In this document: positions 660 to 40,539 of the stretch, in pieces
Layout: every line of letters starts with the position of its first letter
Position numbering within the stretch: position 1 is the first letter of the stretch
Source of the DNA: Datnioides undecimradiatus
Taxonomy: Eukaryota; Chordata; Actinopteri; Lobotiformes; Datnioididae
NCBI GenBank assembly: GCA_008933995.1
Contig: WARS01002753.1
Coordinates: 620,001 to 684,000 of the forward strand
DNA: 64,000 bases
Direction of reading: 5' to 3'
Translations under genes and position numbers: made by a program
The notes under the pieces: model-generated
What the model saw: the letters and a program-made list of their open reading frames with translations, nothing else
Told to the model about the DNA's origin: nothing
The model's database searches: none

Positions 660-878
660 CGAGGTCGTTGACCACCACCACCACCACCATGGTCATCGAC
701 CATAAGAATGGAGATGCTGGTTCACCATCTGTGCGGGGCTCCAAGAAGACTTTCACAGATGACCTCTACTCCACCTTCAGCTCCCCACTGGCTTGGATCT
801 TGGTTCTGGCTCTCATCATTACGTGGTCTTGTGTTTTTGTCATCATGTTTGATCTAATGGACTATAAGACTGTTTCCG
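660..878 (+). CDS. trdn: trdn coding exon 2: cytosolic N-terminus and transmembrane helix
   Basis: 219 bp, phase 1 at both ends. The acceptor is a pyrimidine tract plus CAG and the donor is G|GTAAGC. It encodes a Thr run, then VIDHKNGDAGSP, a basic stretch, FSSPLAW, and a hydrophobic segment (WILVLALIITW and CVFVIMF) that forms the single membrane span, then the conserved DYK. This matches the human exon order and boundary (DYKNFS in human, DYKTVS here). An extra Met sits inside the Thr/Val junction at 689-691 in a near-ideal Kozak context (CCACCATGG), so it could serve as a start for transcripts with another first exon. Confidence 0.95.
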
Positions 879-3800
879 GTAAGCATCTTGGTGCCTACAC
901 AGGAATATGTTTTTGGTTCTTTGTGACTGAAATTTGGAAATTTAAATAACAAAACTCCAAGATGGAGTTCATAAATATACATTTTCACACCGGTTAGAGC
1001 CAGTTCTGACTCAGCCAGCCAAGTTAGACAGATTGTGACTAAGTGTTAGCATGCCAGGCTCTGTTCTGGCACCAGAGAGCCAAATGTGGGCTGACTCTGG
1101 CTCACATGTGGCAGCTTGGCTGTTTAGATTTAGACTTTCGATGCATTTGGAGTGAGATTCAGCCCCAGTTAGCTGCACTCAAACCGGTTTTTGGGCTGTT
1201 TGGGTTGTTTTTGCTGCAAATACAGCTTTACAAGTTGATGTGACGAATCATTTATACTTGTTTAAAGGATAATGAAACTAAAAATGAAACTAAAAAGTCA
1301 CCACAAAGGGAGATAGGGTTGTATATATTGTTATTTATATTATTGTTTTAACATAAATTTAGTTTCTTTTCTTCATTTTAACTGTGATATTTTATCCTAA
1401 ATCTAATTTCAACAGGAAGTTGAACTGCAACAGTATTAAATGTACTAATTTCACTAGTTTGTGTGCATCTCTGTAAGTGTCACACAACTAAATCGCAAGC
1501 CCCCAGTTCCACTTCTCCTCCGACAAAACAACCAATGCCTCCAAAACATCATTAATTTGTGTCGTGTTCAACTCTCTACTCGATTATCTAACCCTAACAT
1601 GAGCATCTCCCTGTACTGTCTCTTCATTTCCTCACTTTCTACACTGGATTATCACTTTGAACCATAACAAAGTCATGCAAAAAAACAGAATAACCCATAA
1701 AAACCAAAACATTACAGTTGTTATATTCTTGAATACTTGCTAATCTAAATTTGAGAAAACATTCAAGTCTGAATTAATATGAACATCAACTTTTATTTGG
1801 TTCTGCACAACAATAATTAATACTGATGTTTCCTGACAGTGTGACAGGCATTAGCCTTTGTGTTTCATCTTCATCACCATCATCACACCATCATTCTTTG
1901 ATCTAACAGTAACTCTGCTCCTTTCCTCCCTCTCTCTTCTTCTTGCTGCACAGCTGTGCTAAAACTGTCTTTGCTTATTGAAGCTGTGTCTCTCATCCAA
2001 CCAGGTCGTCCACCTCCTGCCGTCAGGAAGGTTTTAAAGGATTCAGGGCGTAGAGGCAAGGCACCCTATCTGCTACTAACTCCTCGGACAAGCAGCTCTT
2101 TTCTAAACTCTAATTGATAAAAACCTACTAATTTCCTAACATTGACCGCTAATATTAGCTATCAATGTTAGAACCCAGTCTGCAGAGTACGGTTCAAACC
2201 TCTCTACATCTGCCAGGCTACTACATCCATGCTTGATATTGATAATAATAGTATTTTTTCATATATATTATCACAACTTTACAAGTAATTTGCAGTTTAG
2301 TTTGTGCTGAAGAGATATTTCTGCAGTTTTCTTTAGTGGGTTCACATTTTTATTATGTGTGCTGTGCGTGAAGCAAATAAGGTTTCAACCAGTGGAAAAA
2401 TAGAACATTTTTAATATTTTAAAGGTTCAATCTGTAAGAATGGTGGTTTGGTTTAAAACAAATAAAATCCAACAGGTGGCCAGTTCTTACATATGGAACC
2501 TTTAAAATGATTTCAGATGAGATTGAATTAGTGGTTTTCCTCTAGATTATGCTGCAAAAAATCAATCTCATGCGAAATCTCTGCTTCTTTTATTGCTGTA
2601 TTTTGCTGCTGTATTGTTTTCTTAAATGTTTATATTTATCTTTTTTGCCTTTTGTTATGCAAATCAGGTTGCATTCAGGGCTCAGGCAATGGTGAAATAT
2701 GCAAAACTGTTCTCTGTAGATAACAAAGTTTAGGTTAAGTAATGAAAAATGCACCGATTAGAGATAGCAAGATAGTGATAGAGATAGACCAGACAGAGAT
2801 ACCAGATATCAAGTAATGTCCAAATAAGGCAAAAAACAACAAATATTTGGCTTTTTAAACCTTTTTTCTAGTTATTGTTGTTGTTTCTGTGGGATTCAGG
2901 TTTGTTTCCAAATGAATGATACTTTAAAAGTGTTTTAACATTGGTCCTCCCTCATCAAACTGTCTTCAAGCATTAGGAAATGTCTCAGTCTGCTTTGATT
3001 CGCAGCAAAATTCCCATTGTCTAACTTAACTGTGTAGCTTAATATTCAAACATAAATGTGATGAGAACAATCAATATTCTGAAATATTTTAAAAACAAAT
3101 GGAAACACAATGAATAATACGTTGATGAAAGAGGATTTTTCAAAAGCTTTTTGTACAATGATACGTTACGTAAAGGCCTTTTGCAATGGTTAAACTGGAT
3201 GGTTGGTGATCACTGCTCGTCATACAATATTGTTTTATCCCTGAAATCCAGATTTCGGCTCCTGGTGCCCCATCACAGTTTAACCTTTCCGCTCTGGACT
3301 TTATGTTTACGAACATTTTTTCAGCGCATCCAACAAGAGAATTTGTCTGCACTGAGAAAATGTGAGAGTAAGAGTTCAGAAACTCTTATTACTGGAATTG
3401 GATGTTCGTCAGTGGAAAACAGCTTCATTCAAAAAATAAATGAGTTGCTAAATCACCTGGTGTGTTCATGTTCCTCTGCTCCAACAGGAGGCCTCAGCAA
3501 GATCGGCTCAGACCCCATGAAAGTGGTGAACGACGTCGTGGAGGAATCATCAAACGTGATCACCTTAGCTTTCAAGTTCGCTGCCAACCTGATCGCTCCT
3601 GAAGACGACGAAGGTACAGTCACGATGCAACAGCGACACAGAGCCTTGGATTGTTTGAACATAATAATGTGTTAAATACAAATTTGCATTGCTTGCTGAT
3701 TTTACGACTACTCCAATACATTTCAGATAAAAGCTTCTTTGCAAATTAAGATTTATGCGACCAAAAAAGATTACACACATAAGTATATTACCAGAAGAAA

Positions 3801-6800
3801 ATACATATGACAAATTTTAAAATAATGCATTGTTATAATTTTAACCACAGAAGAGTCTGAGCAAGTAATAATACTAATATAATAATTTAAAAAATGCGCT
3901 TTTCATGCAAGATTTGCAGTTTAATGTGCTTAATTGCAGCCGAAATAATGTCCAAAACTCAATTACTTTAATTAATTGTGTTTATTAATTATATATACAA
4001 AAATGTCTTTGTTTACAAATGTAAGAATTTGCTGTTTTTTCCTTCTAAATATCTTAATAATTTTCTTGTACTTCTGAGGTTTGGACTGTCAGTTGCACCA
4101 AAACAAAATCTATATTTTCAAAGGTTTTAAAAATTAAGCAATCGATTAGTCAGTAGTAGTAGTCAGTAGAAAAAATAATAACTAGTTAAAGTTTTGCATG
4201 AAATGAGCCAGAAACTCAACCATAATAATGATGTGAAGGACGTGTTCCTGATTACACTGACATACTTTTACTTGATTACTTTTTCAATGTAGGACTTTTA
4301 CTTATAAGACAGTGGTTTTTAGCAAAGTTTACTTTTTAAGTATCATAATAAGTAATCCATTACTTTGTTTACTCCTTTCTTTCTCCTCTTCTGTAGGAAA
4401 TCTATATGCAGTGAGAAAAAAAGGTTTGTATTGATGCTTTTTGATGTTTTTCCTGTTGCAACCATCTCTCTGCTGCATATAAACAGATGAAAGCTCGCTG
4501 CTGTGAATGTCTTGTTCAAGCTGCACTGCATTACACGTGCTGTTCTTTACGTCACTTTGCTTCACTCAGAAATATATTTGACACAGTTAAAGTCTGTTTT
4601 TATTGATAACTGTTGATGTTTTGATGCAAAACCTCAATGTTCAATACACATTACAGTTGCATTGTTTTGCTAAAAGCCCCCAGAAGTAGATGAAATGTGT
4701 GACTGGGGGACTGTAGCAACACAAACATGGATCTAGGTGACGACATTTGCCACAGCACTTGATTGTTATTACGATGAAAGTATCAAGCTGACTCCATCTA
4801 TGAACGATCTCAAAGATTCAAGATGGTTGGAGGTGGAGGAGGAGGAGGAGGAGGAAGTGGAGGTGAAGATTAAGAAAGCCAAAGGTATTTTGTGATCACT
4901 ACTTTTCCATGAACGTGTAGGTTAACTCGTAGATGGATGTAATGGATCCCTCCTTCCCCCTTTTAACAGTAGAGTAACCGTGGCAACAACAGTAAATAAG
5001 TATACTAGCATCAGGTATGTGTTGTGTCTGTCTCCGCTTCCCTGTTAACTTGTGTGTTTGTTGCTAACTTCCTGTGATAACTGCTTCCAATAAGCTGTTA
5101 AACTCCTGCGAACACTAACAATGCACATTATGTGTACTGGCATCCAAGCACTAACAAGCTTGATCCAGTTGAATCTGTAGATTTTTGTGTTGCTTTGTGG
5201 CTGATTTCTGTTATTCTCTCCATGTTGCAGGTGAATTCCTACCATCCCGAAGTAAAGGTCTGTACCTCTTTGTTAGCACGGTCACCACATTCTCGCTGCC
5301 ATCACAGACGAACTCTTTGTTTGAACGCATTTGAGACCCATTTGGTGTCATTTGTCGTCGACATGCAGGACGGTCATGACAGACAACATGAGAGCTTGGT
5401 TAAGTTAAAGCACCAAAACAGTCTGTCAACGGCAAACAAGCTGCAAATGCAGAAAAAGATGCAAACTCAAAACCAAACTAAACCCTTAAAAACCTGAATG
5501 CATAACAAAGCTGCTGCGTGCATCTTGTGCAGATGTTAGTTTTCCTGGTGTCCAGGGGCAGCACAAGGTGGAACAGCTTGATTTTTGACCCGAGAGAGTG
5601 AGAGAGAGGACGAATTAGTGGATTTTCATATGCGCTTTTGAATCAGCGCAGTATCTGAAGGTGCAGCAGTTTAATGGACATGGTAGTTGAAAGAGGCGAT
5701 TAGCTCTATGATTAAATGGAGATTAGCATCCATCTTTGTTTTTTATTTATTTAGTTTGATTTGTTTTATTGATATTCACCAAAAACACTGATAAAGAGAT
5801 AATTAGATTAACTTTCATATGTTTTTTTTTTGCAGTCATAGGGATGCAAGCAAAGACGAAACCGCCAGCAATCGAAGTCGTGGAGGAGGAAGAAGAGGTG
5901 GGAGAGGAGGAGGGAGACCAAGTGGAGGCTGCTGGGGAGGAGGAAGAGGAGGAAGAAGAGGAGGAAGAACTAGAGGAGGGAGAGGAGTATTACGAGGAGG
6001 AGGAAGAGGAGTATTACGAGGAGGAGGAAGAGGAGTATTACGAGGATGAAGAAGAATATTATGAGGAGGAGGAAGAAGAATATGAGGAGGAGGAGGGAGA
6101 AGAAGCTGTGGAGGAGGAAGAGGAGGAGGACGAGGTGGAAGAGGAGGCAGAAGCTGTGGAGGAAGAGGAGGATGAAGAGGGAAAGGCTGATGAAGAAGAG
6201 GAGGAAGAGGAGGAGGGAGAAGAAGAGGAAGAAGGAGCTGAAGTAGCTGCTCAAGAAGAGGAGGAGGAGGAGGAGGGGGAAGAGGAGGAGGAGCAAGAGG
6301 AAGAGGAGGTAGCTGCTGAGGTGGAGCAGGAGGATGAGGATGAAGAGGAGGAAGATGAGAAGGAGACTGAAGCAGCTGCGCCTGAGATCGATGAAGATGA
6401 AACAGAGAAAGAAGCAGCAGGAGAAGAAGAGGCCGATGAAGCTGACGATGATGAGGAAGAGGAAGAGGAGGAGAAGGCAGATGCTGCTGAGGAAGATGAT
6501 GAGGAGGAGGAGGAGGAAGAAGAGGAAGTTTCTCCCAAACCCATCTCCACTTCTGAGGATGAAGAGTCGGCTGTGTCTACCGATTCTGAGTCTGATGTCC
6601 CCGTTGGCGTCAAAGACAGCGACGAAGATGTTGCTCTGCCTGATGAAGATGACGAAAAAGATGAAGATGACACCAGCGACGAGGCGTTCACTGACACCTC
6701 AGACATCAGTGAATCTGCCCTTCTATCCAGTGAGGAAGAGGGGGAGCAGGATGATGATGAAGATGACGATGAAGATGACAGATTAGCAGAAGGTGTTGTG

Positions 6801-9800
6801 ACATCTGATAGCGATGATATCATTGCAGAGGACAGCGCCGATGACCTGGAGCTTGACCTTCCTCCTGTTCCTGCTGTCAGCGAGGATGATGAAGATGAAG
6901 ACCATAAACTCCCTGAAGAGGAAGATCTTCCTCCTCTGCCTGTTGATGATGATGAAGATGAACACCTGGAGGAAGACGTCAAAGTGGTTAAAGACACTGA
7001 TGAAGATGATGATGATGATGATCTGGACCAGTTGGACGAAGACATCTCCATTGCCTCCTCTGAGCACTTTGCAGATGATGAAGATGACGAGGAAGACGAC
7101 TCTGACCTTGACAAAGATGTCCACGTTGACTTCGATGATGTTGAAGATGATCATGACAAACCTGATGATGTCACTGAAGAGGACATCTATGACGATGATG
7201 ATAAAGAGGAAGAGGAAGAGCAGGAGGACGTTCCTCCTTCTGAGCAGACAGACAGTGGAGTCTTAGGAGACGATGATGATGATGAAGATGAGGAGGAGGA
7301 GGAGGAGATGAGAACAGACGAGGAATCTGTTGGGGAGACTCCGCCGAGTGACGACGCCTCCTATGACACGACTGATGAAGATGACAATGAGGACGATGAC
7401 GATATCGACACCAGCTCGCTCGAGTTCACCTTCGATCAGGAAGATGAGAAAGAGGTCGCTGAGACGTTTGTCAACGCCAAAAAAGACGAAGAAGAAACCA
7501 CATCAGAGGCTTTAACAACTGAGGATGAAGAAGATGAAGAAGATGATGAAGATAAGGAAGATGATGATGATGATGTGGATGATGTCATACTTGCAGGTAG
7601 AGTCCAGTAGTATTGATTATTATTACAATAAAGAGGAAATGATTGTTTCTGATTGGCTGGCAGCCATCCATTCAAATTAACTTCATTGGCAACAAACATT
7701 AATTGAAAAATGTTAAAAAATTACACCTTTTTAAATCAGAATTATATTAATTTAAACAACATACTAAAGCAGTAATACACAGTAAAATAATGTAAAGGTA
7801 AATGTGGATTAGTTTTGAGGGTTTTTTTCTACATATTTTTATTTTTATACTTTAAAAGGTTTTTTTTAAAAAACATAAGGGTACACAAAATTGAAAAATT
7901 TGTTTAAAAAAACTACAATAATAATTATGAAAAAGTAGTAAAGCATGAATTACTTACAATTAAATAAAATTGTTTTTTATCATAAATCTGAATTTTTAGA
8001 CATTATTGCATTTTATTCATATATATTTCATTTATTCATTAAATTGTTTTTATTTTAATGTGATTATTTCTTTTTTTTCAGTTTGTAATTGGCTGGCAGC
8101 CTTTCATTCAAATTAACTTTATTGATAAACAGAAACTGTTTTAATTAAATTATATGAATATTAATAACATATATTAAAGCAGTAATACAATGTAAATGTG
8201 GATTAATTTGGTGTTTTTATTCTAATTTTAGTTTTTTTTTAAACAAAAGCACTAAAAATGAATTTAAAACTATTACAACTATTATAAAATAAAACACACA
8301 CTGATGAAATAATGTGTAAAATAAAACAAAATAATAAAAGATAAAATACTTTATCCAGATAACTCATAATTTTTAGACATATTTATACATTTTATTTCAT
8401 ATATATTTCATTTATTCATGGAATTTCACTCTCTTTATTCATTTTTGTTTTGATTTTAACATGATTTTGCCTCCACAAACTTTCCAACTCACAAATTATG
8501 ATAATACATAGATAAAGTAATGATTTCTGTGCAGCTACAGTGTGTGGTTATACTTGTCTGTTTCAGCTGCCACTGCAGCTGCTTTCACCGTCCAGGAGGT
8601 GGCAGCAGCGCCTGAAGGAGACACAGATGAGGAGGAGGACGATGTCAAACAGGCTGCTGATGAGGACGAATCTGAGGAGGCTGAAGCTGGTGAGAGTCAA
8701 ACAGACGTCAACTTACACACTGTTAATTAAAACAAGCTTATCAGAACTAATTTAAAACGTCTTTAAACTGCTTCTTTAGTTGTAAAACTGTTGAAATTTA
8801 AAGGCAGGGAGGTCATACAGTATAGAAACATGATGAGCTTCATGACTGAACAGCTGCAAAACAACTGCTAAAAACCAAAATAGACAGGGGAAATTCACGT
8901 ATATATACACAGAATTCAGGCAAATCCAATCTAATGTGTCAGTATCAGTTTCACATTTAAACTCAGTCTGCCAGCTGCAGTTCATTGCAGCTCACAGAAC
9001 AAAATAACTCCATAAAACTAATTTTGGTGCAAATAAATACATAAATACAATAATATATAAAACTGAACAGGTTATGATGAGCCCTTAATATTTAACATGT
9101 ATTTTTCATCATATTTACAATACATTGTCATTTTCCCCCTTATATTTGTGTAAAATAGACAAAAACTGTCCAACTTAATTTTCAGACTGATTTTTTAAAA
9201 AGACACATAAGTTCATCGTTGTGGCTGCGATGTTCTGTAATGTAGTGCAACTCAGCACTCTGTATCCTAAATATGTAAAAATGTTGAGAAATAAATAAAG
9301 TCAGGCTGTGATTTGCCGTCAAAAACTTTGCATTGCATTTAGGTTTCAGTGATTGGGATGACGAGGACTTCTGTTCTGGAGTCATTACTATTTGCTACTA
9401 TGGCGACTGATCACACATGAACACTGTTGGTCGGTTGAGTATCAGACTTTAAGGTAGACCCAATTTATGCACTTCCAAGACTGTTTAAAGACCCGAGCAT
9501 GCAGAAATATTCAAAAACACACATTTTTAGGGTGAGAAAAGAAGCAAAAGCAGAATTTAAAGCAAAAATAATGCATTTGTATTGTGTGCATGGCCCAAAA
9601 CAACATTAGATTAACATAAAATGGATGTGAGGATCAAAAAAAAAAAAATTATTTGTAAAATTGTGTTACTGCCTTTTCATTAAGCAACATTTCAGGTTTT
9701 ATTTATCAGATTACCCAATCAGGAAGCAGATATGCAAGTCAACCAGCTGGCTGACCTGCCAATTTAGGGTAATTTTGGGCATTAAGTGTAAGTCAACTGG

Positions 9801-12800
9801 CTGGTGCCTGCTACTACGCCCATAAAATGTGTGACAGTCTATTATTCCTGAAAAATAATAAAAAACAAACATTATGGTTAATATTACATTACTGAAGCAG
9901 TACAACAATAATACCTCTCTTTACAGATGTTCATAGGAGTTACCTAAATTCACCTGTCTAGCTAGCTTTGAGTAGTTGTGTGAGTGTGTGTAAGGCAACC
10001 TGCGTATTACAAACTGAGTATTTTGACATATCATTATCAAAATGTTCCCGCAATTGTTCAGATTCATACAAAAATGAATCAGGATTCATATGTGTAATGT
10101 GCTCACAAATAGGCGAACATTTTGATATAATTATGTCCGTGTAGCTTACAAACTGAATGACTAGCAATGGTTAGAAAACGGGTACGAAATGAGGAAATTA
10201 GCGATTTGAGCTAGGCTGCTAACACTGACTGCTTACACTGGCAACTCAACCGAGCGGTCGACCTTGTTTTCCGAAGCGTCATAGATATGTCTGATTTATT
10301 CCCTTCAACTAAAATACGATCGTTGTAGTGTCTAGAAATAATATATAAAACATTTTTTTTCTTACCTCAACTTTCACTCGTACTCCTTGTCAATTTTGAC
10401 GAGCTGCGCGGCGCCGAGTCACTTCCGGTTTTTTCAGACGATATTTCTACACATCAGCGCCACCCAGTGGACACAATCGGCGTTACATACACTACTCAAT
10501 GGGGTGAATGGGGATAAACAGCCACGGGTAGGTTTTCAGAGTTTTTACTACAGCAATATGGCGGCAAGAAAAGTGATCTAACTGACGAGCTAGCATAACA
10601 CACTAGGTACCAATAGATCGGTTATGTCCTTAAGTTTCATATGATATCAGCTTTTATAGCCTGCGACAGTAAAGTCACAATCACTGACTGCTTTCACCCT
10701 CAGTTATCAGTCCGCCTGCTGCCCTCGACGAGGACGAGGATGAGGGAGGGGACGAAGAAGAGCCGACGGCCCAACTAAAGAAAACCGTGGATGAGCCCGA
10801 AGATAAGAAGGAGGACTACGACGAGGACGACGAGGAGCAGAAGGCGACGGTGGATGTGATCAAACCTGTGCCTGAACCTGAGGGGGAGGCGCCGAAGGCT
10901 GAACACGCAGGTGAGAGGGCGACGACGACGGCGGCGGCGGCGGTTACTGTGTCCCGTTCAGCCTTACTGTGACTTCACCTTCACGCTTTGTGATTTCAGT
11001 GTGTCCGTGCATGTCCTCTACAAAGGCCAAAGAGTCTGTCACCAAGACTACTGACAAAAAAGGTTTGTATTCATTTATTAGGTTATTTTAACAACACATG
11101 CCTCAAATTAACCCACATATTAAAACTGAACATAACTATGTCACTGAACTTGTCAATTAAGTACATTGATGTGACTAAAAAAGCTTTTTCTGCCTGGATT
11201 GATTAAAAACCTAAATATTCATCATCACAACTCAAAGTTGGGTTAGGAAAGGCAGGTAAAATCACATTTTAATCAATTCAGTTCTCCTTTGCAGTGTTAA
11301 ATCATGTTAATTTAATCTGCAGACATAAGTGTTGACATGAGACTAATAGCACAGATTTGATATTAGCATCAGGATCAAATGAGAAGTGAGTTTTAGCTTA
11401 ATCAGTGTAACTAAAACCCCAGCAAACAACAGCTCAGGCTGCAGATGGCATCTTCATTCATCGTAACCTGTTTTAGTTTTGCACATGTTGCATGTTTATT
11501 CATTAGCGAAGGGAAACTGGTGGCTTTTAGTTTGATTTCTTGCAGTGAATTTGTGTTTCTGACAGCTATGATAGCATAAATGTTGCTGTGATAAATGCAG
11601 ATTTGCGGAGCTGCAGCAGAAGAGCATTGCTGTGAAAAGCTCAGAGTTTAAATAATTCACTTTTGCAGCTTTAAGTCTGTGATCTTGTGCTTTCAGACGC
11701 TCCAAGGAGGGTTTCAGCTGTCAGGAGGAAAAAAGGTACAGATGTGAATTAAAGAGATTCCCACTGAAGCCACCAACAAAACACACTGACCAGAAAATAT
11801 TATCTGAGTCCAAAAACAAACAATTTATGTGTTTCTCAGCAATAAGCCTCTGTACGATAAGTTTGTAATTGATTGATTTCTAATTTTTAAGAGCATGAAG
11901 CTGTGACGATGGACGAAAAGCCCAAAAGGAAAGGTAACATTAAAAAATGCATTCATGTCTCATTTATACCAACCTCTAACTGGAAAACCTCAACTGCATC
12001 TTAGAGTTAATAATTCTGTGCATGTGGTTTATGCAGCTCTGCCCAGAATTTCAGGTCTGGGTCCAAAAATCAGGAGGATCAGGAGAATTCCCACAATCCT
12101 CAGAGGTAAAAAGAGTTAATATGGATTTGCATATTAATAGTAATATGATTATAAATCAGATTAGGATTGCGTTTAAAGGAATAGGTCGATGTTTTGGGAA
12201 ATATTTATTTGGCATGAAGCTGAAACTGAGAATCAAGACGGGAAAGAAGGTGAAACAGCAACAGTGGCCACAATTTCTGTCAGGGTGTTGTCACGACTTT
12301 AATTAACTGGATGTTTTTTCCTTTTAAAATCTGATAAAAAGCAAAGACAGCCGAAAAGACCAAGACTTCCAAACCAGGTACGTGAACGAGTCAGGATAAC
12401 ACACTGTCACACTCGCAGCTGATTTATGAAATTGTGGGTTTAGTGAAGTTAATTTTATTTATGTAGCTCAGTATCACAGATTACACCCCTGCCTAAGTCT
12501 TTTGACCCCTTGACCAAGTTAATGAAAAAACATTACCGAGGGACTAACTGTCAGGAAGAGCAACGTAGGACAGAATATACCTCCAGAATAAAATAACAGT
12601 ATAAAGAGAAGAAGATGCGCAACAGACGCTGAGAGCGATGTTGTCTTTTACTTTTACAGAGACGGAGACCAAAAAACAAGAAGAGGTCACACAGTCTGAG
12701 CAAGAAGGTATTACAGCCATCACTAGGCAATATAATATAAAAAAGGTTTTATAAAATGAAAATATTTAATATCAGTGATGAAAGTTTAATTGACAAAAAG

Positions 12801-15800
12801 TAGCAAATAAATACAAATAGATGTCCTGCATTCAAATTCTTTAAAGTATTAGCATTTAATTATACTGAAAGTACCAAATGTTAAAGTTCTCCTTATGCAG
12901 ATTCAAATACCAGAGTATTATAGGTGACATGATGCATTCAAGTGTTCATCACTTAACACTGTAGCTGGTAAATGTGGAGCTAAATGTGATTATGTTGCAT
13001 ATTAAAATAAAGTTTAGCAGTAAAGTATAGTAAAATATGTCTATTTGTGACGATTCATTATGATAGCTTTTAAATATTATGTATATGTTTGTTATTTATG
13101 CTGAAATTATAATCTAGATATGCAAAGTGTACTATTTTATATATTATTATATTTAAGTATTGGTTAAAACAAATGTTGAAGTATAAAGTAGCACAGAATA
13201 AAAATGCTCAAATAGAGTACAAGTATGTGAAAATTGTACTTAATTACAATATTTAAGTAAGTGCTTATGCATTTCAGTCGGCCCTTGCAGACCTGCACCC
13301 GTTTACTGCCCGTCTCCACCTGGCTGGTACGGTAAGTATTCAAAAACTGTTTTTAAATTTAGAATCAGTTAATAAATATCTGATTTTATAACTCTGATGA
13401 TGTCGGTCTGTTTTAGATATTCAAATCTTCAAAATTACCAAATGTTAATTTAAAGCTTTATGTTCTAGTTCACCACGTTGTCACAGACAACCCGTACCCT
13501 CCTCCAACCATGTCAGGTATGTTGTCAGATTGACTATAAGTGAAATAATATCAGTAAAAGACTTGTTTTAATATGTTTTCCCCATGTTTTCGGTCTCTTC
13601 TGCTTCAGCTCCGTCTGCTCCCGTTCTGACCGCTCACCCCGTCCACCCTGGAGCTCCACCCCTGCAGCATCTTTATCAGCAACAGCTGCTGCAGCCGCTT
13701 TATGCACAGTATCAGCCCTATCAACCTCCTGTGCAGCCGCTGCAGCCGGTCCCACCAGCTGAACCAGTGCAGCCGGCGGCCACAGAACAAGAGGCCCCTT
13801 CTCAGCCTGAGATCCAGACTCCACCCGCTGAAGCTCTGCCCGCTGTAGCGCCGGTTCAGGGTGAGGTCAAAGGTAAAAAGTCACTGTGTCACAAAACATG
13901 ATTCTGCCAATTCAGGATCATTCTGAGGTCATCCCTTCAAATTTGGCTCAAGCATTCAGATCAATTTGAGGATGAACTAAGGTCAAAGATTTTGCCTAAT
14001 TAGTAATAAACATCTTTTTTTGAATGATGCAACAGTTAATATATTTGCTCATAAAAGAGTAAATAACTGAAAAAGTGTTTAAATTTCATGACCTACCTAA
14101 ACTTTTCTCTCTGAAAGAACCAGAGACTGTTGAGGAAGAAGTGAAGGCTGCCTCTACCAAGAAAGGTACAAACTATTATTTAAACTCACATAATTATTTT
14201 TCTGTTATTCACTGCGGTGAACAATAATTTGTATGTGATATTTTCCAGCTGCAAAGACGAAAACCAAGGCTGACGATTCAGAAAAAGGTACTGTATGCTT
14301 CTCCAGATCCCCCTGAATGCTTAATTTGTCAATAATCTGGTGTATTTTCTGTAACAAACCACAGCTGCAGCATTAAACAGTGATGCACAATGACACAATG
14401 TATGAATGCATTCATTATGGAAAATTAACTCTGCGTGGCCATTTCACTCCATTTATCCCCTCAGAGTCAGCAGCGGGCAAGGAGAAAACCAAGAAAGGTA
14501 ATTTATGTTTACAGCTCAGTAATTTGCTGTTTTCTTTGGAGTACAGTGTCGCTACGAACGGTACAGACGACAAACAGTGTTTAGCTGTAAATATACAGAC
14601 ACATTTTAAAAAGATGCAAATGACATAATTTAGCATGTTTTGCCAATTCCAGGTGACGCTGTTTCAAAAGATAAAACCAAAGCAAAAAAAGGTGAGTAAA
14701 CACTGAGGGAATATTCATATTAATTTAAAATACAGTGACCTTATAGAGTGTGTTGTGTTACAGAGCCAACGGCAAGAAAAGAGAAACCCAAACGTCCTGC
14801 AGTTGCCAAAAAAGGTAATGAATATATCCAGTCTGTGAAATTTCTAATGAAGGAATCTCCCAAACACTAATGCAATATAATATGAACCATAAACTACATC
14901 TGTAGACATGTCTCAACTAAAATATGTTGTTACAGAGGTGTCTTGTGTCTTGTTTGTGTATTTTTAACAGCACAGATGCAACTTAATGTTCATTAAGAAC
15001 ATTATGAGAATACAGGCAGCAGTGTGTCTCTATGATCCTCTCATGACGTCTGTGACTACATGTTGTTGCTTGTGGTGACTCTGTGATGAAGCTGACTCTA
15101 CAGTACATAGGCTGAATGATGGTTTTGAATTATACATTTCTTTATTATAAGAATACTAAAGGCAGTAGTGTGTCTCTATCATCCTCTCACGTCTCCTGTA
15201 TATGCGCTAAATAATGTATTGTATAATGATGTGTTGTATATAGTATATAGAGAATATTATAGCCATACTACAGGCAGCAGTGGGTCTCTATGATCCTCTG
15301 ACTCCTCTACGACTACATGTTGCTACTTGTCACTTTAATTGTGAAGTTGACTCTGGTCAATAAAGTACAAAGGTTATAATATAGTATAGAATTAAATGTT
15401 TATAGCATATAGTTTAGAGAATATTATAGGAATATTGCAGGTAGCAGTGTGTCTCTATGATCCTTTCACTCACACATGACTTCATGGTTTAGTTTAGAGA
15501 ACATTATAGCAGTCAAGAATCAGAATCTGTCAGACTGCGACTAGTGGATGAAGATGGGGGATGGCAGATTAACAAAGGGGGATGCATGTTGGTCATTTTG
15601 CTAATGAGCAGGGTTATGTCTGTCATTTGTTTTAACAGAACCAGCTGTGCAGGAGAAAACCAAAAGTGCAGCAGCTGCTAAGAAAGGTAACACATCTTTA
15701 GGAGAGGGTGCTCTGGATATTTGTAAAGTTCAAAAATGATGATAAACTAACCCAGGGTACCTCCCTCCTTCATGTGAGGGAGCTGCTAATATTTCACAAA

Positions 15801-18800
15801 GAAAACAAATTATTCAGGCCACTAATCGTGTCTTTTTCCTCATTACACCAGAGCCTGCAGCTGTACGACAGAAGAGGAAATCAGCCTCTGAAAAGACAGG
15901 TGATTACACACACCAACGTTCATTTATTCGCGTCAAGTCAATCATTGTTCATGTCAGCGTCATGAAAGATGATTGGAAACTAATTGTTTCTGCTCTTCTC
16001 AGAAGCTTCGCCTGCCAAGAGCAAAGCCAAAGCATCTGCCGCCAAGAAAGGTAAAACTTAAAATTCTGCATTTGTTTTGCCGTCCAGTTTCTGACTTGCA
16101 TCATCTTTTGTGTTGTTTGTGCAGGGATGTAAACACAAATCTGATTTGTCTCGATCCAGATCTGGCACCAGAACCGAGACCACAGCCGATCAGACTGAGA
16201 ATGAGAGCAGAAACCATGAGGGGAGCGAATGTAACCTCTCAGGCAAAGCAGGAAAAACCTGCCAGACCTTCGTCTGAAGCAGGTAACAAGTCAAAAGTGT
16301 TGCCTTTCAGTTTATTTCAATTAAATGATCTTGTCACGCGTGCGCAAACAGAGTAACAGGAGAACAAGAGGTGGGACCCATATGCAGACACTTGAGGCAG
16401 AGCTTAAGCAGTTCAATGATTTCATTAACATAAAAATCAAACGGTATAAAAAAGGCTTATGGGATGGTGGCAGGCGAAGGTCAGAACCAAAGAAAGCAGT
16501 CCAGGCGGGCGAATAAATCCACTGTGGATAAGGTGAGAATCAAAAACCACAAGAGTGACTCTGGGAAAACAGAGCAGAGATCCAAAAACAGGCTGGAAGT
16601 CTTTGCACAAGGCACAAAGACAAAGTGGCAAACTGAGGAGGCTAAACACTCAAAAACTAAAAACACCTGGGAGGGAATAAACTAACGAGGAACAGGTGGA
16701 AGTAAAGGCGGGACGGACAATCACACAGGTGAGGAAAACACAAATTAACAGGAAGTGGAAACATCTCAAATGAGGAGAGAGATGGACTACAGAATAAAAC
16801 AGAAAGCAATGCAAACAGGCCCGGATTTCAGGGTTGAGCAAAACAGACCTGAAACCTGCAGTTTTTTATTGTTATTTCCGTTTATTTTCAGCCAAGACGA
16901 AACCAAAATTACTGGCTGAGAAGAAAAGTAAGTGTGCATTTATCATATTGCATTGTATATACAGTATGTACTCTTGTATTTGTTTGTTTATTTGTGGCTT
17001 CAATCAATAATTTTGCAGACAAAAGATGTCAACAGCCACAGACGTTTGAAGCTACAGGCTGTAATTATCAGTGTACAGTTCAGAGACAGGCTGTAGATAT
17101 GGTATAGATTGAAACTGGAGGTATTTATGCCGATAAACCACTGTGATGCTCCATAAACATCCGATCCGGGAAACACAAGGGCAAGCCACCTGAAACGAGA
17201 GGGAAGTTAGTACTTTCAAAATAAAACAGGAAGGCACGAGACAACATAGACAAGACAAGGGACTAAATGTGGCTGACCTGACCAGACATGACACTTTTTA
17301 AGCATTCTTTGTTCTTCATATATGATACTGAAATGCAGCAAACACAAAAAAACATTCATTCAGTCTTCCATTCAGTTGCCCGCAATTAAAATAAAAACTG
17401 TTGATGTAAATGTGATAGTTAAACCTTCATGATGTATTTAAATGATGAGAGTATAGATGTTTGCAACACAAAGTGTCTCCCAGATATGATATTTCCGTTG
17501 ATGCTGCTGAACAACAAAGTCTGGTCTGGAGCTCCACCTCAAGTCATTGGGATCAGTTTCCTTGTGACGCTGACTCCTCGACAGCAGAGAAACACTTTCT
17601 ACAAAGCGTTTTTTTTGACCCTGGAGGAAAGAAACAGAGGAATTAATGTGAAATAGTCAAGCAGTGGAAGAGCAGCCAGGGTTGATTTTCTCTCAAAACA
17701 TCTGAGATGTGGTGATGTTACGTCTCCGCAGACATCTTTCAGGACAAATGACACTTGTTGGAAACATAGTCGCAGATTATGAGATTAAATGGGCTGTTTC
17801 ATGCATGATGAAACTCTAATTAGGGACGTGTCAGGCTGAATTACACTGAGAGGGGAATAATATCGCAGGAATATTAAATGTACACCGCAATTACGGAGAG
17901 TTATTTGGCAGGCTGTAATGGGGCTGTCGCTTCTCCTCGCAGGCAAAGCCGAGAAGGCTGAAAAGAAATCTGTCAAAGAGGCTCAAGGTATGGATTCACA
18001 ATCAGGAAGTGAAGTTGAATCTCTAAACGCTCTGGACGTTTCATCACTTTCTCCTTTTTTACCGCTTTTCACATTTCAGACAAAGAGAAACAACCGGCGC
18101 AAACTAGTGAGTACTGCAAAACAGCATCCGGTCACCATAAAGATACTAACACTAACCCAAACGTGATGTTTTGTTGCTGTTACATTTAAAAGCAGCTTCA
18201 TCTACAGTGGCCCTGAGGGCTCAACGTGCATGCAAATAGGGAAACATTAAGGACATGTCTTCAGCAATTTAATCAATTCCACCGATAATCTTAAAAACAG
18301 ATGAGTATCACAAAAAATGTTTTATCTGCAAGCGCTCGCACAAATCCTCACTTTCTGATTGGACGATGCCTTTTTGCTGCTTGCTGCCTGCCTGTAGCGA
18401 TTAGCTTACCATGCTCCATTAACGCATTAGTAAATTTAAACACCTACTAATTCTAAAAGATTGATTTCTAATGACTTATTAAAAAACACAAACTCATTTT
18501 GGGAGCCTTTCACATAATTCTGTGCTCATTTTAGCCCCATGTGCAGTGAATAAATGTGACGTTTACATATTTTTATAATTGCTGGTTTATTAAATTGAAG
18601 TTTGACTGCGTAAAACTTGGCACGGCATTAAACCGAAGACCTCAAAAACATACGCAAAGAAGGACTCGGTCACATATTCTCAGCCAAGATGAATAAACAC
18701 GAAGTTCATGCTCTGTTTGGACTGAAATTAGACTAAAATTAAAAGTTCTACTGATTAAATGTGAACTAAAATGACGAGTTAATATTGTAAAGCATGATTT

Positions 18801-36771: not shown

Positions 36772-39700
36772 CTGAACAGACACAGAGCACAAGATGAAGA
36801 TCAGCAGACACTTCATAGATTCACCCTGCTTGTCTGTCTAATTCTGCTTATTGATCCGAGTCTTTATTGAATCCTCGTGGCTCAAAACAGTAGGACTGTT
36901 TTATTGTCTCCACGTCCAAGCAGAACTCAAAATAGCAGCTCACAGCCAATCAAGCTGCAGTTAACATCCATGTCTGTCCAGACTCAAACAATACATAATT
37001 AGCATTTTTTACCTAATTTGACGTTTGAATAATAAGAATAAGAATGCCTTTTATTGTCACTGCACACATGTACAATGTACACTATACACATGCACAATGA
37101 GATAAGAGCAACTCGCTCTACAGTGCAGACAAGTAAGAAACATTTACAACATATAGTAAAAAAATAGAAATAAAAATGAATAAATAAGGAAGTATTAGTG
37201 CAAGAGAGGATAATGATAGGAGAGGGGGTGGGGCGAGGTGCACAGATTGAGGAAGTACAGGCGAGGGTGACATAGTGCATTGATTTTCAGGTTAGTGCAT
37301 AGATTTTGTCATAATTAGGCCAAAATTGTGTTTTGTGAGGTCACTCTCACCTTTGACCACCAAAATCTAGCGCAACTGCACATTTGTGCCATATTTGAAG
37401 AGATTGTGCGGAGACGTTCTTGAGATGCTGTGTTCGAGAGGCTAAAAACATGTTTTGCCCTTGACCTTGAACCAGCTGAGTGTAATCAGTTCATTCCTGA
37501 GTCCAAGTGGACGTTTGCGCCAAATCTAAGGGGATATACCAGAGATATTGTGTTCAAGACACCAAAAACACGTTTTGTGAGGTCACAGTGATCTTGACCT
37601 TTGAGCAGAGTCTAATTAGTGGAAAGTGAGCTCCTCGAGGCAGCACAGCACAGAAGATGTTTCAGCATGTTGCTAGAGTCTCAATCCTCTATGTAATTAT
37701 CATTTTACAGGCTTATGAATACTGTTGTCATCTTTCTTTTTGAACCATACTTTGGACTGCTTCGTCATCTCATAACTAAAGTAAATGTAACAGAAACTAA
37801 AAATTGTTTTATGTTTAAAATCTTTGTTTGATAGTAGACTGATAAGGTTTCACATGCACGATCAAATTCTAGCTAATCAATTGTCGATTAAAGGTTATCC
37901 CCTCTAACCTTTAGGATCCATGAAGACCTGTCCTCTCTTGTACAACTGTATGTTTCTGTATCAATGTTTTGAAAGTGTTTACTCTGAAATCTTTGATAAA
38001 ATGCTGAAACGTGCATGAATCATGGATGTTGTGCTTTATAAATTAGTATTTACCTTGTTTTCAAAGTAAAAAGTTGAACTTTTCAAATCTGAAAATCTTG
38101 GCAAGGTTGAGCCTCCATGCATTTGCATTTGTTTCTGATAATACGTTTGCAGCAGCTGCGACTGAATAAACAAGTGAGTTTGGGTTAAAATACAAAGCGC
38201 AATCGATAACCCACGACTGATTTATTGATGGTTGATTGACAGGGCCGTGTTGACACTCTGCTCACATCGTGGTTTGTCCGAACGTATCTGAGTGAGTCAG
38301 TCAGTTGTTGTCGCACAGTGGTCAGATGATTTACTGTCACAGTGAATCACGCTGCATGGTGGCCCGTAGGGCGGGAATGACACTCTGTGAAATGTCAAAC
38401 ACACTCACAAGCAGCACGCCGCCAAAGATGCATCCGTAGTAACAAAGACCTGAAAATACCTCCGCCTTACACCCACCACACAATATGTTTTATTAATATT
38501 GAGTGGGTAGATTTTAAAGGCCAGTAACTGATTTTCTTTTCATTTTTATATTTTAATTATTATTTTGTTGAGTCAGCAGCTTGATAAACTGACTCTGGAT
38601 CAGCTGTAAGACACATTTCTGTGTGTCAGCAGCTTGATAAACTGACTCTGGATCAGCTGTAAGACACATTTCTGTGTGTCAGCAGCTTGATAAACTGACT
38701 CTGGATCAGCTGTAAGACACATTTCTGTGCTCCTCTTTTCAGCCGCTGCTTGTTTTTAACTCTGTATCTGAAGCAGATGAAGGATTTCAGTCGTCGGACG
38801 TCTGGATCTGAAGTTATCAGAGAAACAAGCTGAGCAAACGTTAGCAGCAGCTCAGCTCGCCGCCCCTCCAGGACGTCCCGTGTGCGGCCGACAGCGTGGG
38901 AGAAACAGTGGTTTTTAAGGTGGAACTGCTTTATTCAGTGTTTCTCTGGGTTTGAATCAGCGGCTCTGTTTGTTTTGGAGAGGAGGAGACCTCTGTGGAG
39001 AATTCAGCTCCCAGTAAAAACCTCCTGAACCATCAAAACTGAAGGAATCCCAGCTGACAGGAAGACAACAACTCCCAGCATCCCACGCTGCTGCAGGAGG
39101 TCACATGACTGCAGCTTTTCAGTCAGATGCTTGAGAACGTCACAGTTAGATAAAATCTCTGTCATTATCTCATTTGTTTACACTATTTATGCAATGACAA
39201 CACAATTAGTTTGACCATATATTCATGTTCTGTTGTCACATGGGTGCATGTTGTAGATTTGAACTTAGTTTAACTCATTTTTTATATTTAAATACTTCAT
39301 TTCCTGCGTGATGTGCACCATATTAGTCCAGTTTTTCATGCGCTAGTTGTTTTTTTTTTTTTTTTTTAAAGGTGTCTTGTTCTTTCATGTCATGCAGAGT
39401 TTATAGGTGCATGTGACCATTGGTTCAGATCCCTGCAGCAGTTCGACATAAAGTGAAAATCTGCAGATTCAGTGGAGATGTTAAGTCTCAAGCTGACCTC
39501 TTCATGGTTTTTGGGGACAGGTTCTTCTCCAGGTCTCTCTCCAGGTCTTGTACTGACAGGGTGTAGGACTCCGGGCAGTAGTCGGTCTCCTCGTCGTAGG
39601 CGTGGTCCAGCAGCGTTCGCGCCCACGTGCCCATATCGTACGGCGGCATCATCCCGCCAAGCTCTGACGGCAAGATCTCAGGGTGGATCAGCTGATGGAG

Positions 39701-40539
39701 GCTGTTCAGGTTGTTGCCGTGCATGAAGATCTGCAAAGGGAGAGGATGCAAACAGGATGTTCACAGACTCAACACATCTTCAGATTCAGGTAATTTATGT
39801 TGTTTGCATCAATAATTAAAGCTGCAACATTGAGGTGGAACCTCAATCACTTACGATTAATAAACCATTACTTTAACAGAAAGTAATATCAGTAATTAAA
39901 CTGATAGGATTAATTACAGACATCCCCTAAATGCATCACATGCAGATTGTCAGTAGATGCCAGGATTTACCCATGTTCCTAAACTCCTGCAGCTCTGACA
40001 TCAGTTCATTTGACCACTTTGTTTATTAAAGTTAAAGTAGAAATGCAGAATGAGAGCTTGCCACATCTTTTAGCGACTTTATCATCAACAACACAGTTTT
40101 ACAAACGTTTCAGGCACACTTAGCTTTCCTGTTAGCATTAGCTTCTGAAGCTACGCTGCGTGGGAGATGTCACACTACAGCTGATATCCAGTTTAATCAT
40201 AATTTTTTGCCTCACCTGTAATTTTGAATGAAAAAATCTGCAACTTTCCTCTCAGGAAACCACGAGTAGTTCAAAACAATACAGAGCAAACTAGCAAAGC
40301 ATTAACAGAATTAACAGATTTGAGCAAAATCAGGCTCTAAATGTCTAAATTTTTCAGTTAACCGCTCACTAAATCTGTAAATAAAACCTAAAAATGTTCA
40401 TTATTGGCTGCTGTAAGCTGTATCTTACCCTCTTCCTGGTCTTGTCTTTGAGGAAGGGTCGTATAACGGTGTAGAGAGCGTGGATGTACCACGGCTGGTT
40501 CACGAAGTGGATTCCTCCAAATCTGGCGGGAAAACTGTC
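36678..40539 (-). CDS. clvs2: Clavesin-2 gene (clvs2), last three coding exons
   Basis: Clavesins are neuron-enriched Sec14/CRAL-TRIO lipid-transfer-type proteins. They bind phosphatidylinositol 3,5-bisphosphate, associate with clathrin-coated vesicles and influence late endosomes and lysosomes. Three exons (40429-40539, 39498-39730, 36678-36771) join in frame into the last 145 residues of the protein, which is 327 residues long in human. They cover the end of the CRAL-TRIO domain and the C-terminal tail. The match to human clavesin-2 is nearly continuous over [20 protein letters not shown] and [19 protein letters not shown], and the end is MQPLLSLD. That end and the tail-to-tail triadin neighbour favour clvs2 over clvs1. 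The N-terminal exons must lie beyond base 64000 on this strand, because none was found in the 23.4 kb available. Confidence 0.95.
37022..37300. repeat. Dispersed teleost repeat
   Basis: It begins 'aagaatgccttttattgtca' followed by CA/GT-type words, a form that I recognise from many fish genomes. It has no coding capacity. Confidence 0.45.
37320..37625. repeat. Dispersed teleost repeat with internal sub-repeats
   Basis: It contains 'ttttgtgaggtcac' twice (about 37332 and 37573), 'ctttgaccaccaaaatcta', 'gtccaagtggacgtttg' and 'gccaaatctaaggg', the phrases of a widespread fish repeat in which such units follow each other. Assigned from memory without a database match. Confidence 0.55.
38572..38729. 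repeat. 53-bp tandem repeat, three near-identical copies
   Basis: Copies start at 38572, 38625 and 38678 with GTCAGCAGCTTGATAAACTG and end with CACATTTCTGTG. Few or no differences are seen between copies, so the array is recent or homogenised. The unit is not a multiple of three and lies in an intron. Confidence 0.95.
39498..39730 (-). CDS. clvs2: clvs2 penultimate coding exon
   Basis: 233 bp, entering in phase 0 and leaving in phase 2. On the minus strand the acceptor is CTTTGCAG and the donor AAGAG|GTCAGC. It encodes [40 protein letters not shown], then [16 protein letters not shown] and a tail ending LSPKTMK. Compared with human (EYNVDSYSMPVKEVEKELSPKSMKR) the segment before LSPK is several residues longer here and contains a Cys. 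The +-strand frames over it are shadows. Confidence 0.97.
39731..40428 (-). other. clvs2: clvs2 intron
   Basis: A 698-bp intron, AT-rich, with no repeats or other exon recognised. Confidence 0.8.
40429..40539 (-). CDS. clvs2: clvs2 coding exon: end of the CRAL-TRIO domain
   Basis: 111 bp, 37 codons, phase 0-0. On the minus strand the acceptor is TTCTTAACAG and the donor AGAGG|GTAAGA. It encodes [20 protein letters not shown] then [17 protein letters not shown]. Only one residue (Asp for Glu in LKEK) differs from the human sequence as I recall it. The segment belongs to the lipid-binding fold. Confidence 0.97.

Follow-up and report, generated by a model that had tools for sequence, protein, structure and literature searches.

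The acidic exon and its coding structure

We analysed a stretch of 64,000 nucleotides from Datnioides undecimradiatus (assembly GCA_008933995.1, contig WARS01002753.1, positions 620,001 to 684,000; hereafter the window), in which the forward strand carries a gene that we read as triadin (trdn) and, inside it, a single long exon for a strongly acidic segment. The initial annotation had described this exon as continuous, 1761 bp long, in phase 1-1 and encoding a Glu-rich half followed by an Asp/Ser/Thr-rich half; its boundaries and frame were recovered as claimed, and codon counts confirmed the order of the two halves:

5836..7596, forward strand: acidic exon of trdn (1761 nt, 587 residues, net charge about -315)
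5838..6512, forward strand: E-rich half, codons 1-225, built partly of 24-nt tandem units
6513..7595, forward strand: D-rich half with S and T, codons 226-586, holding all six S-x-E sites

Indeed, the exon is free of stops in its own frame, starts and ends in phase 1, and holds 586 whole codons, a further codon being shared with the flanking exons. The whole codons specify 336 D+E and 21 K+R (E 211, D 125, K 19, R 2) and 5 His, with 59% E and no Ser in the E half, and 30% D, 22% E, 8% S and 5.5% T in the D half. The 49 in-frame 100-codon windows inside the exon carry 45 to 76 D+E, compared with at most 13 in each of the 139 stop-free 100-codon windows sampled outside it across the 64 kb. The remaining frames over the same bases contain 9 and 107 stops on the plus strand and 13, 7 and 9 on the minus strand; an antisense gene was rejected, since GA repeats would be expected to leave minus-strand frames open over the 159 to 299 codons seen. 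On its sequence, the exon lies in frame within the modelled trdn, and it is probably a coding cassette of this gene.

Dinucleotide shuffles of the whole exon never gave a frame of 586 codons (0 of 2000; longest 206). When the halves were shuffled alone, the longest frame for the D half was 149 codons against the actual 361, and 225 codons were attained for the E half in 0 of 2000 shuffles, a null that is too lenient for the E half given that GA-rich look-alikes are also open. A genome DNA search with the exon returned 63 matches, namely the exon itself, a copy of the locus on another contig (C194, see below) and 61 non-self matches, all of which lie within exon bases 38-693, i.e., the E half and at most 16 bases of the D half; this search scored 40 of 353 first-look candidates and skips simple repeats, leaving room for D-half matches elsewhere. 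Six of the 61 look-alikes were examined and contain in total 0 to 4 stops over all six frames of the matched stretches, so the openness of the E half proves little by itself and it is its staying in frame that counts. A mere microsatellite is conceivable for part of the E half and was rejected for the D half.

Codon structure separates the two halves further. The codon-position bias amounts to 0.51/0.45/0.06 bits in the D half and 1.21/0.84/0.34 bits in the E half, and the ratio of largest to smallest bias reaches 8.5 and 3.6, respectively, compared with 1.2 to 1.8 in the six GA-rich look-alikes, whatever their own coding status. In the D half both synonymous pairs are well mixed (GAT/GAC 69/39, GAA/GAG 41/37), and 186 D+E codons stand against one-step neighbours numbering only 13 AAR, 2 AAY and 6 GGN (4 GGR, 2 GGY). 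This codon use fits acidity that would have been retained while silent sites vary, and the D-rich half appears convincingly coding. Note that synonymous codons agree at lag 8 in 56 of 76 cases in the E half (0.55 expected) and at lag 2 in 49 of 65 cases in the D half, both a sign of tandem growth; the lag-2 agreement means that the silent sites of the D half are not fully random. An older D half and a younger E half would account for both patterns.

These data bear on the reading that the exon is spliced in as a tolerated low-complexity expansion whose acidic length itself has little function. The 24-nt tandem units and lag-8 agreement of the E half, the GA-rich look-alikes at other genome sites, and the large charged frames that asph1 and asph2 carry too (see below) all speak for it; however, the D half is absent from the listed look-alikes and keeps its acidity with freer third positions and few one-step neighbours, and we regard this reading as unlikely, though worth retaining.

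Splice sites of the exon

The initial annotation had called the splice sites good, which suits the acceptor (12.6 bits, 99.7th percentile among the AGs of the window) better than the donor, which is moderate (5.4 bits, 95th percentile among the GTs) within the 4.0 to 12.2 bits of the other modelled trdn donors; all scores come from splice matrices entered by hand. That moderate donor, together with a very great length for an internal exon, could be taken to indicate a pseudo-exon that is never or rarely included in muscle mRNA. Against this stand the intact 586-codon frame, the matching phases, the strong acceptor and the coding-like codon structure, which make a pseudo-exon very improbable. 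Control of the exon by RBM20 was also considered and rejected: TCTT is not enriched nearby, with 1 occurrence in 300 bases upstream and 0 in 300 bases downstream compared with 4.9 per kb over the window. TRDN is listed in a table of RBM20-regulated genes (PMC5793171; here and below, papers are cited by PubMed Central identifier).

Gene model and identity

The exon was placed in a gene model drawn by eye from candidate splice sites, which should be read as a hypothesis, though a consistent one. Between 660 and 20780 of the window it places 29 exons, all read as phase 1-1, followed by a final exon that carries the stop codon:

660..878, forward strand: trdn exon 2, cytosolic end and membrane anchor (PF05279, splice sites)
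3488..3613, forward strand: trdn exon 3, membrane-proximal luminal segment ending APEDDE (phase 1-1)
4397..4423, forward strand: small trdn exon, 27 nt (phase 1-1, acceptor 16.7 bits)
4816..4884, forward strand: doubtful small acidic exon (acceptor -1.3 bits)
5231..5257, forward strand: small trdn exon, 27 nt, directly 5' of the acidic exon (phase 1-1, acceptor 12.4 bits)
8567..8689, forward strand: trdn exon after the acidic exon, itself acidic, 123 nt (phase 1-1)
10704..10910, forward strand: acidic trdn exon, 207 nt (phase 1-1)
11000..20780, forward strand: 21 modelled small trdn exons (12342-12377 doubtful) with three KEKE stretches (splice model, KEKE definition)
21407..21558, forward strand: last trdn exon, FQCIYVPG, with the stop codon at 21558

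All lengths and charges exclude exons 4816-4884 and 12342-12377, whose acceptors are poor. Exon 1 lies upstream of the window, where a filtered scan of 10 kb left two candidates, including MTEAVE|G about 2.96 kb upstream, which we take to resemble the start of human triadin.

The anchor region matches Pfam PF05279 (26.6 bits for a cut-off of 23, residues 41-77), and a PDB search with the anchor exon (E<=10) gave a single match, AspH (E 0.0011), which covers the anchor. On the minus strand, 39491-39730 has retinaldehyde-binding protein 1 as its best match in PDB (E 3.7e-4), with CRAL_TRIO below its cut-off (13.5 compared with 22.6 bits); this clavesin-like exon may belong to clavesin 2, the neighbour expected from the human gene order TRDN-CLVS2. 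The luminal tail holds three KEKE stretches. Because of the PF05279 anchor, these KEKE stretches (by the definition quoted in PMC3427183) and the gene's own stop at 21558, with a candidate clavesin as neighbour, we read the window gene as triadin; the model presumably lacks a hydroxylase domain. The earlier placement of the acidic exon in trdn, just after the membrane-proximal exons, is borne out by the PF05279 anchor and by plausible in-frame neighbours. Two side observations were made along the gene: among the modelled exons, 11000-11062 and 13278-13331 contain Cys (CPC; two Cys) and 13609-13872 (264 nt) is rich in Pro and Gln, and a 21-base tandem repeat runs in a trdn intron from 19797-20000 on, with about 10 copies to the end of the scanned stretch and several frames open.

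Family relatives and copies in the genome

Over the genome (581 Mb, 497 contigs), PF05279 gave seven matches: one in the window gene, one in the C194 copy, one in a gene on C307, and two in each of the two asph genes, which lie on C477 and C2; since both asph genes map to those contigs, an asph (junctin) identity for the window gene was rejected. Exon 3 and the last exon, searched in the genome at E<=1, were found only at the window locus and in the C194 copy. The latter (C194:617001-647000) is near-identical to the trdn locus, with one mismatch and one gap over 24,000 aligned bases and 2001 of 2001 bases around the acidic exon, and sits on a contig nearly as long as the one that carries the window; it is probably a second assembly or haplotype copy of the same locus and, being near-identical, was rejected as an independent test of the acidic exon.

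The C307 gene (C307:9734076-9741521) is trdn-like, its anchor exon sharing 54% identity over 61 residues and a direct comparison with exon 3 giving 34% identity (E 0.004), a similarity absent from the genome-wide exon 3 matches. In the 80 kb examined around it, no KEKE series was recognised and no stop-free 60-codon window carried at least 24 D+E, and the genome search with the last exon (E<=1) recognised no C-terminal trdn exon there.

Both asph genes contain large charged frames. That of asph1 (C477:1826019-1826960, minus strand; 942 bases, 314 residues, 130 D+E, net -122) is readable as a phase 0-0 exon with an acceptor below 4 bits and a possible alternative donor, and that of asph2 (C2:3270244-3271656, minus strand) is an E/K/R repeat of 471 codons that ends in a stop, has a net charge of +16 and is possibly a giant junctin-type last exon. 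Charged luminal expansions therefore appear in three family genes of one fish, and we infer that they may have originated separately. When viral contigs were scanned for the anchor exon, 9 pattern matches turned up, none of them a relative.

Modelled protein

Without exon 1 and not counting the stop, the model predicts a protein of 1258 residues if the acidic exon is included and of 671 if it is skipped. The product of the acidic exon begins about 71 residues after the membrane anchor, whose end was placed by eye, on the luminal side. Neither Pfam (E<=1) nor the sequences in PDB (E<=0.001) gave a match to it, and AlphaFold2, run on the exon alone and with no alignment, gave a mean predicted local distance difference test score of 40, with none of the 586 residues reaching 70 and helix limited to residues 37-104 and 140-157; the prediction is consistent with a disordered acidic domain. 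The proposed likeness to calsequestrin or HRC is one of composition, with no counterpart in Pfam or PDB at these thresholds and no confidently predicted fold. The six S-x-E sites correspond to the motif of Fam20C, a kinase which phosphorylates mammalian triadin upon co-expression in HEK293 cells (PMC6298778).

With the acidic exon, the luminal part consists of 768 residues of net charge -352 followed by about 428 residues of net +35; without it, the same +35 segment follows only 181 residues of net -37. The net charge of the whole model accordingly stands at -316 with the exon compared with -1 without it.

Calcium and the proposed role of the acidic domain

Triadin links calsequestrin to the ryanodine receptor (RyR), where the sensing of luminal Ca2+ remains a matter of debate. 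The acidic product would probably be an unfolded polyanion brush, tied to the membrane by the anchor and lying in the junctional sarcoplasmic reticulum (SR) near the luminal mouth of the RyR. Such a brush would bind Ca2+ loosely, collapse as Ca2+ fills, and compete with calsequestrin, HRC and the RyR for triadin's own KEKE motifs, and the luminal Ca2+ load would thereby alter which partner triadin holds; because it lies within the same protein, the acidic chain would compete at a high local concentration and in a manner that Ca2+ modulates. On balance, we lean towards this Ca2+-responsive brush near the RyR mouth. Several studies provide a background for it: the KEKE region of triadin activates RyR1 via acidic residues of the RyR1 luminal loop and contains the site for calsequestrin (PMC3427183), HRC binds the KEKE region in competition with RyR2 and calsequestrin (PMC6171002), and in AGARP, an extremely acidic disordered protein, Ca2+ collapses the chain without folding it (PMC12557392). 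Some of our observations weigh against the brush, namely the only moderate donor, the resemblance of the E half to GA repeats frequent in the genome, the signs of tandem growth at lags 8 and 2, the lack of any such exon in the 80 kb examined around the C307 gene, the support from the sequence of one species, and the identity of the C194 copy across the exon, which makes it no independent test.

The initial annotation had gone further and proposed a large calcium store of the protein's own. Calsequestrin holds one Ca2+ per pair of acidic residues (PMC4389316), and at this ratio the 336 acidic residues set a ceiling of 168 Ca2+ per triadin. This compares favourably with 34 per calsequestrin-1 at 1 mM and 50-80 at most (PMC4389316), and with 21 per junctate (PMC10000884), as would be expected if the domain added substantial SR Ca2+ capacity, like a tethered calsequestrin or HRC. 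However, mouse extensor digitorum longus contains 0.96 umol/kg triadin and 0.32 umol/kg RyR1 tetramer (PMC10038659), i.e., three triadins and at most 504 Ca2+ per RyR tetramer, or only about 0.16 mmol Ca2+ per kg, an estimate tied to mouse amounts, from which fish amounts may differ. In addition, calsequestrin genes exist in this fish, PF01216 giving 32 exon matches at four places in the genome (C477, C486, C468, C38). The proposed store is therefore plausible in kind and overstated in size at mouse triadin amounts; we consider a bulk role improbable, and local buffering, sensing and organising the likelier task of the acidic domain. For HRC, PF10529 (15 positions) had no match, and its controls were also unmatched, so that absence of HRC is not implied.

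Length and repulsion could also act as a spacer that holds calsequestrin or the KEKE part off the membrane, Ca2+ being incidental. A long disordered polyanion should be expanded, and the 471-codon asph2 frame of net +16 suggests that the family also grows length without net charge; charge this dense should nevertheless bind some Ca2+ at SR levels, nothing else speaks specifically against a spacer, and as the sole role it would be hardly credible. Returning to the Ca2+-responsive brush, a bolder extension, which we hold to be possible but doubtful, is that splicing in one symmetric exon acts as a charge switch that would turn a charge-balanced KEKE tether (modelled net -1) into a membrane-anchored polyanion (net -316) with its own Ca2+-tuned calsequestrin/HRC-like KEKE ligand, and that splicing alone could let a fish fibre adjust how luminal Ca2+ is sensed at each of its release channels.

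Comparison with known systems

The modelled gene shares with triadin (Trisk 95/51/32) the anchor, the KEKE stretches, many small phase 1-1 exons and a C-terminal FQCxY-like exon, and differs in the 587 acidic residues added by one exon, at the position where human triadin presumably has a short acidic run. Among known proteins, junctate, from the sister gene ASPH, seems closest to the acidic-exon triadin, the fish domain being far larger. Both would combine an anchor with a negative luminal domain, Ca2+-binding in junctate, a likeness of composition only on the fish side; junctate is a 33-kDa protein, is not encoded by trdn and, we assume, lacks a KEKE tail in the same protein. It binds about 21 Ca2+ with a Kd of 0.217 mM (PMC10000884). 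HRC is likewise acidic, of low affinity and high capacity, and binds the triadin KEKE region (PMC6171002), but is soluble, untethered and 13% His, whereas the fish exon has few His and no Pfam match. The Asp-rich tail of calsequestrin also binds Ca2+ and triadin (PMC4389316), although calsequestrin is folded and polymerising, unlike the fish exon product, which has neither a Pfam or PDB match at the thresholds above nor a confident fold.

The purine-rich exon ORF15 of RPGR encodes a long, Glu-rich, disordered acidic domain in an alternatively spliced gene (PMC4890669); it differs as the Glu-Gly terminal exon of a ciliary protein, and there is no homology. Starmaker-type and AGARP proteins are very acidic disordered chains, and differ from the fish domain as biomineral proteins (an origin that we presume for AGARP) that are not membrane-anchored. 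Their likeness to the fish domain extends, for AGARP, to collapse with Ca2+ (PMC12557392). Altogether, this is a predicted variant of triadin whose acidic domain is of the junctate kind but far larger, and the exon that encodes it is reminiscent of RPGR ORF15 in composition (PMC4890669).

If the brush is real, a natural triadin with a large removable polyanion beside its KEKE motifs would offer a ready test of whether acidic ligands of these motifs set channel activity, and a Ca2+-buffer role could pass from separate proteins into the anchor itself; this would also bear on teleosts as models of triadin knockout syndrome. In the open-access PMC literature, the titles and abstract openings of the best-ranked matches listed describe no acidic triadin exon in fish. 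In zebrafish, a trdn probe was placed in the region common to all trdn isoforms (PMC8471218), and the complement of its reverse primer reads PEEEED in one of three frames, a possible hint from a second species.

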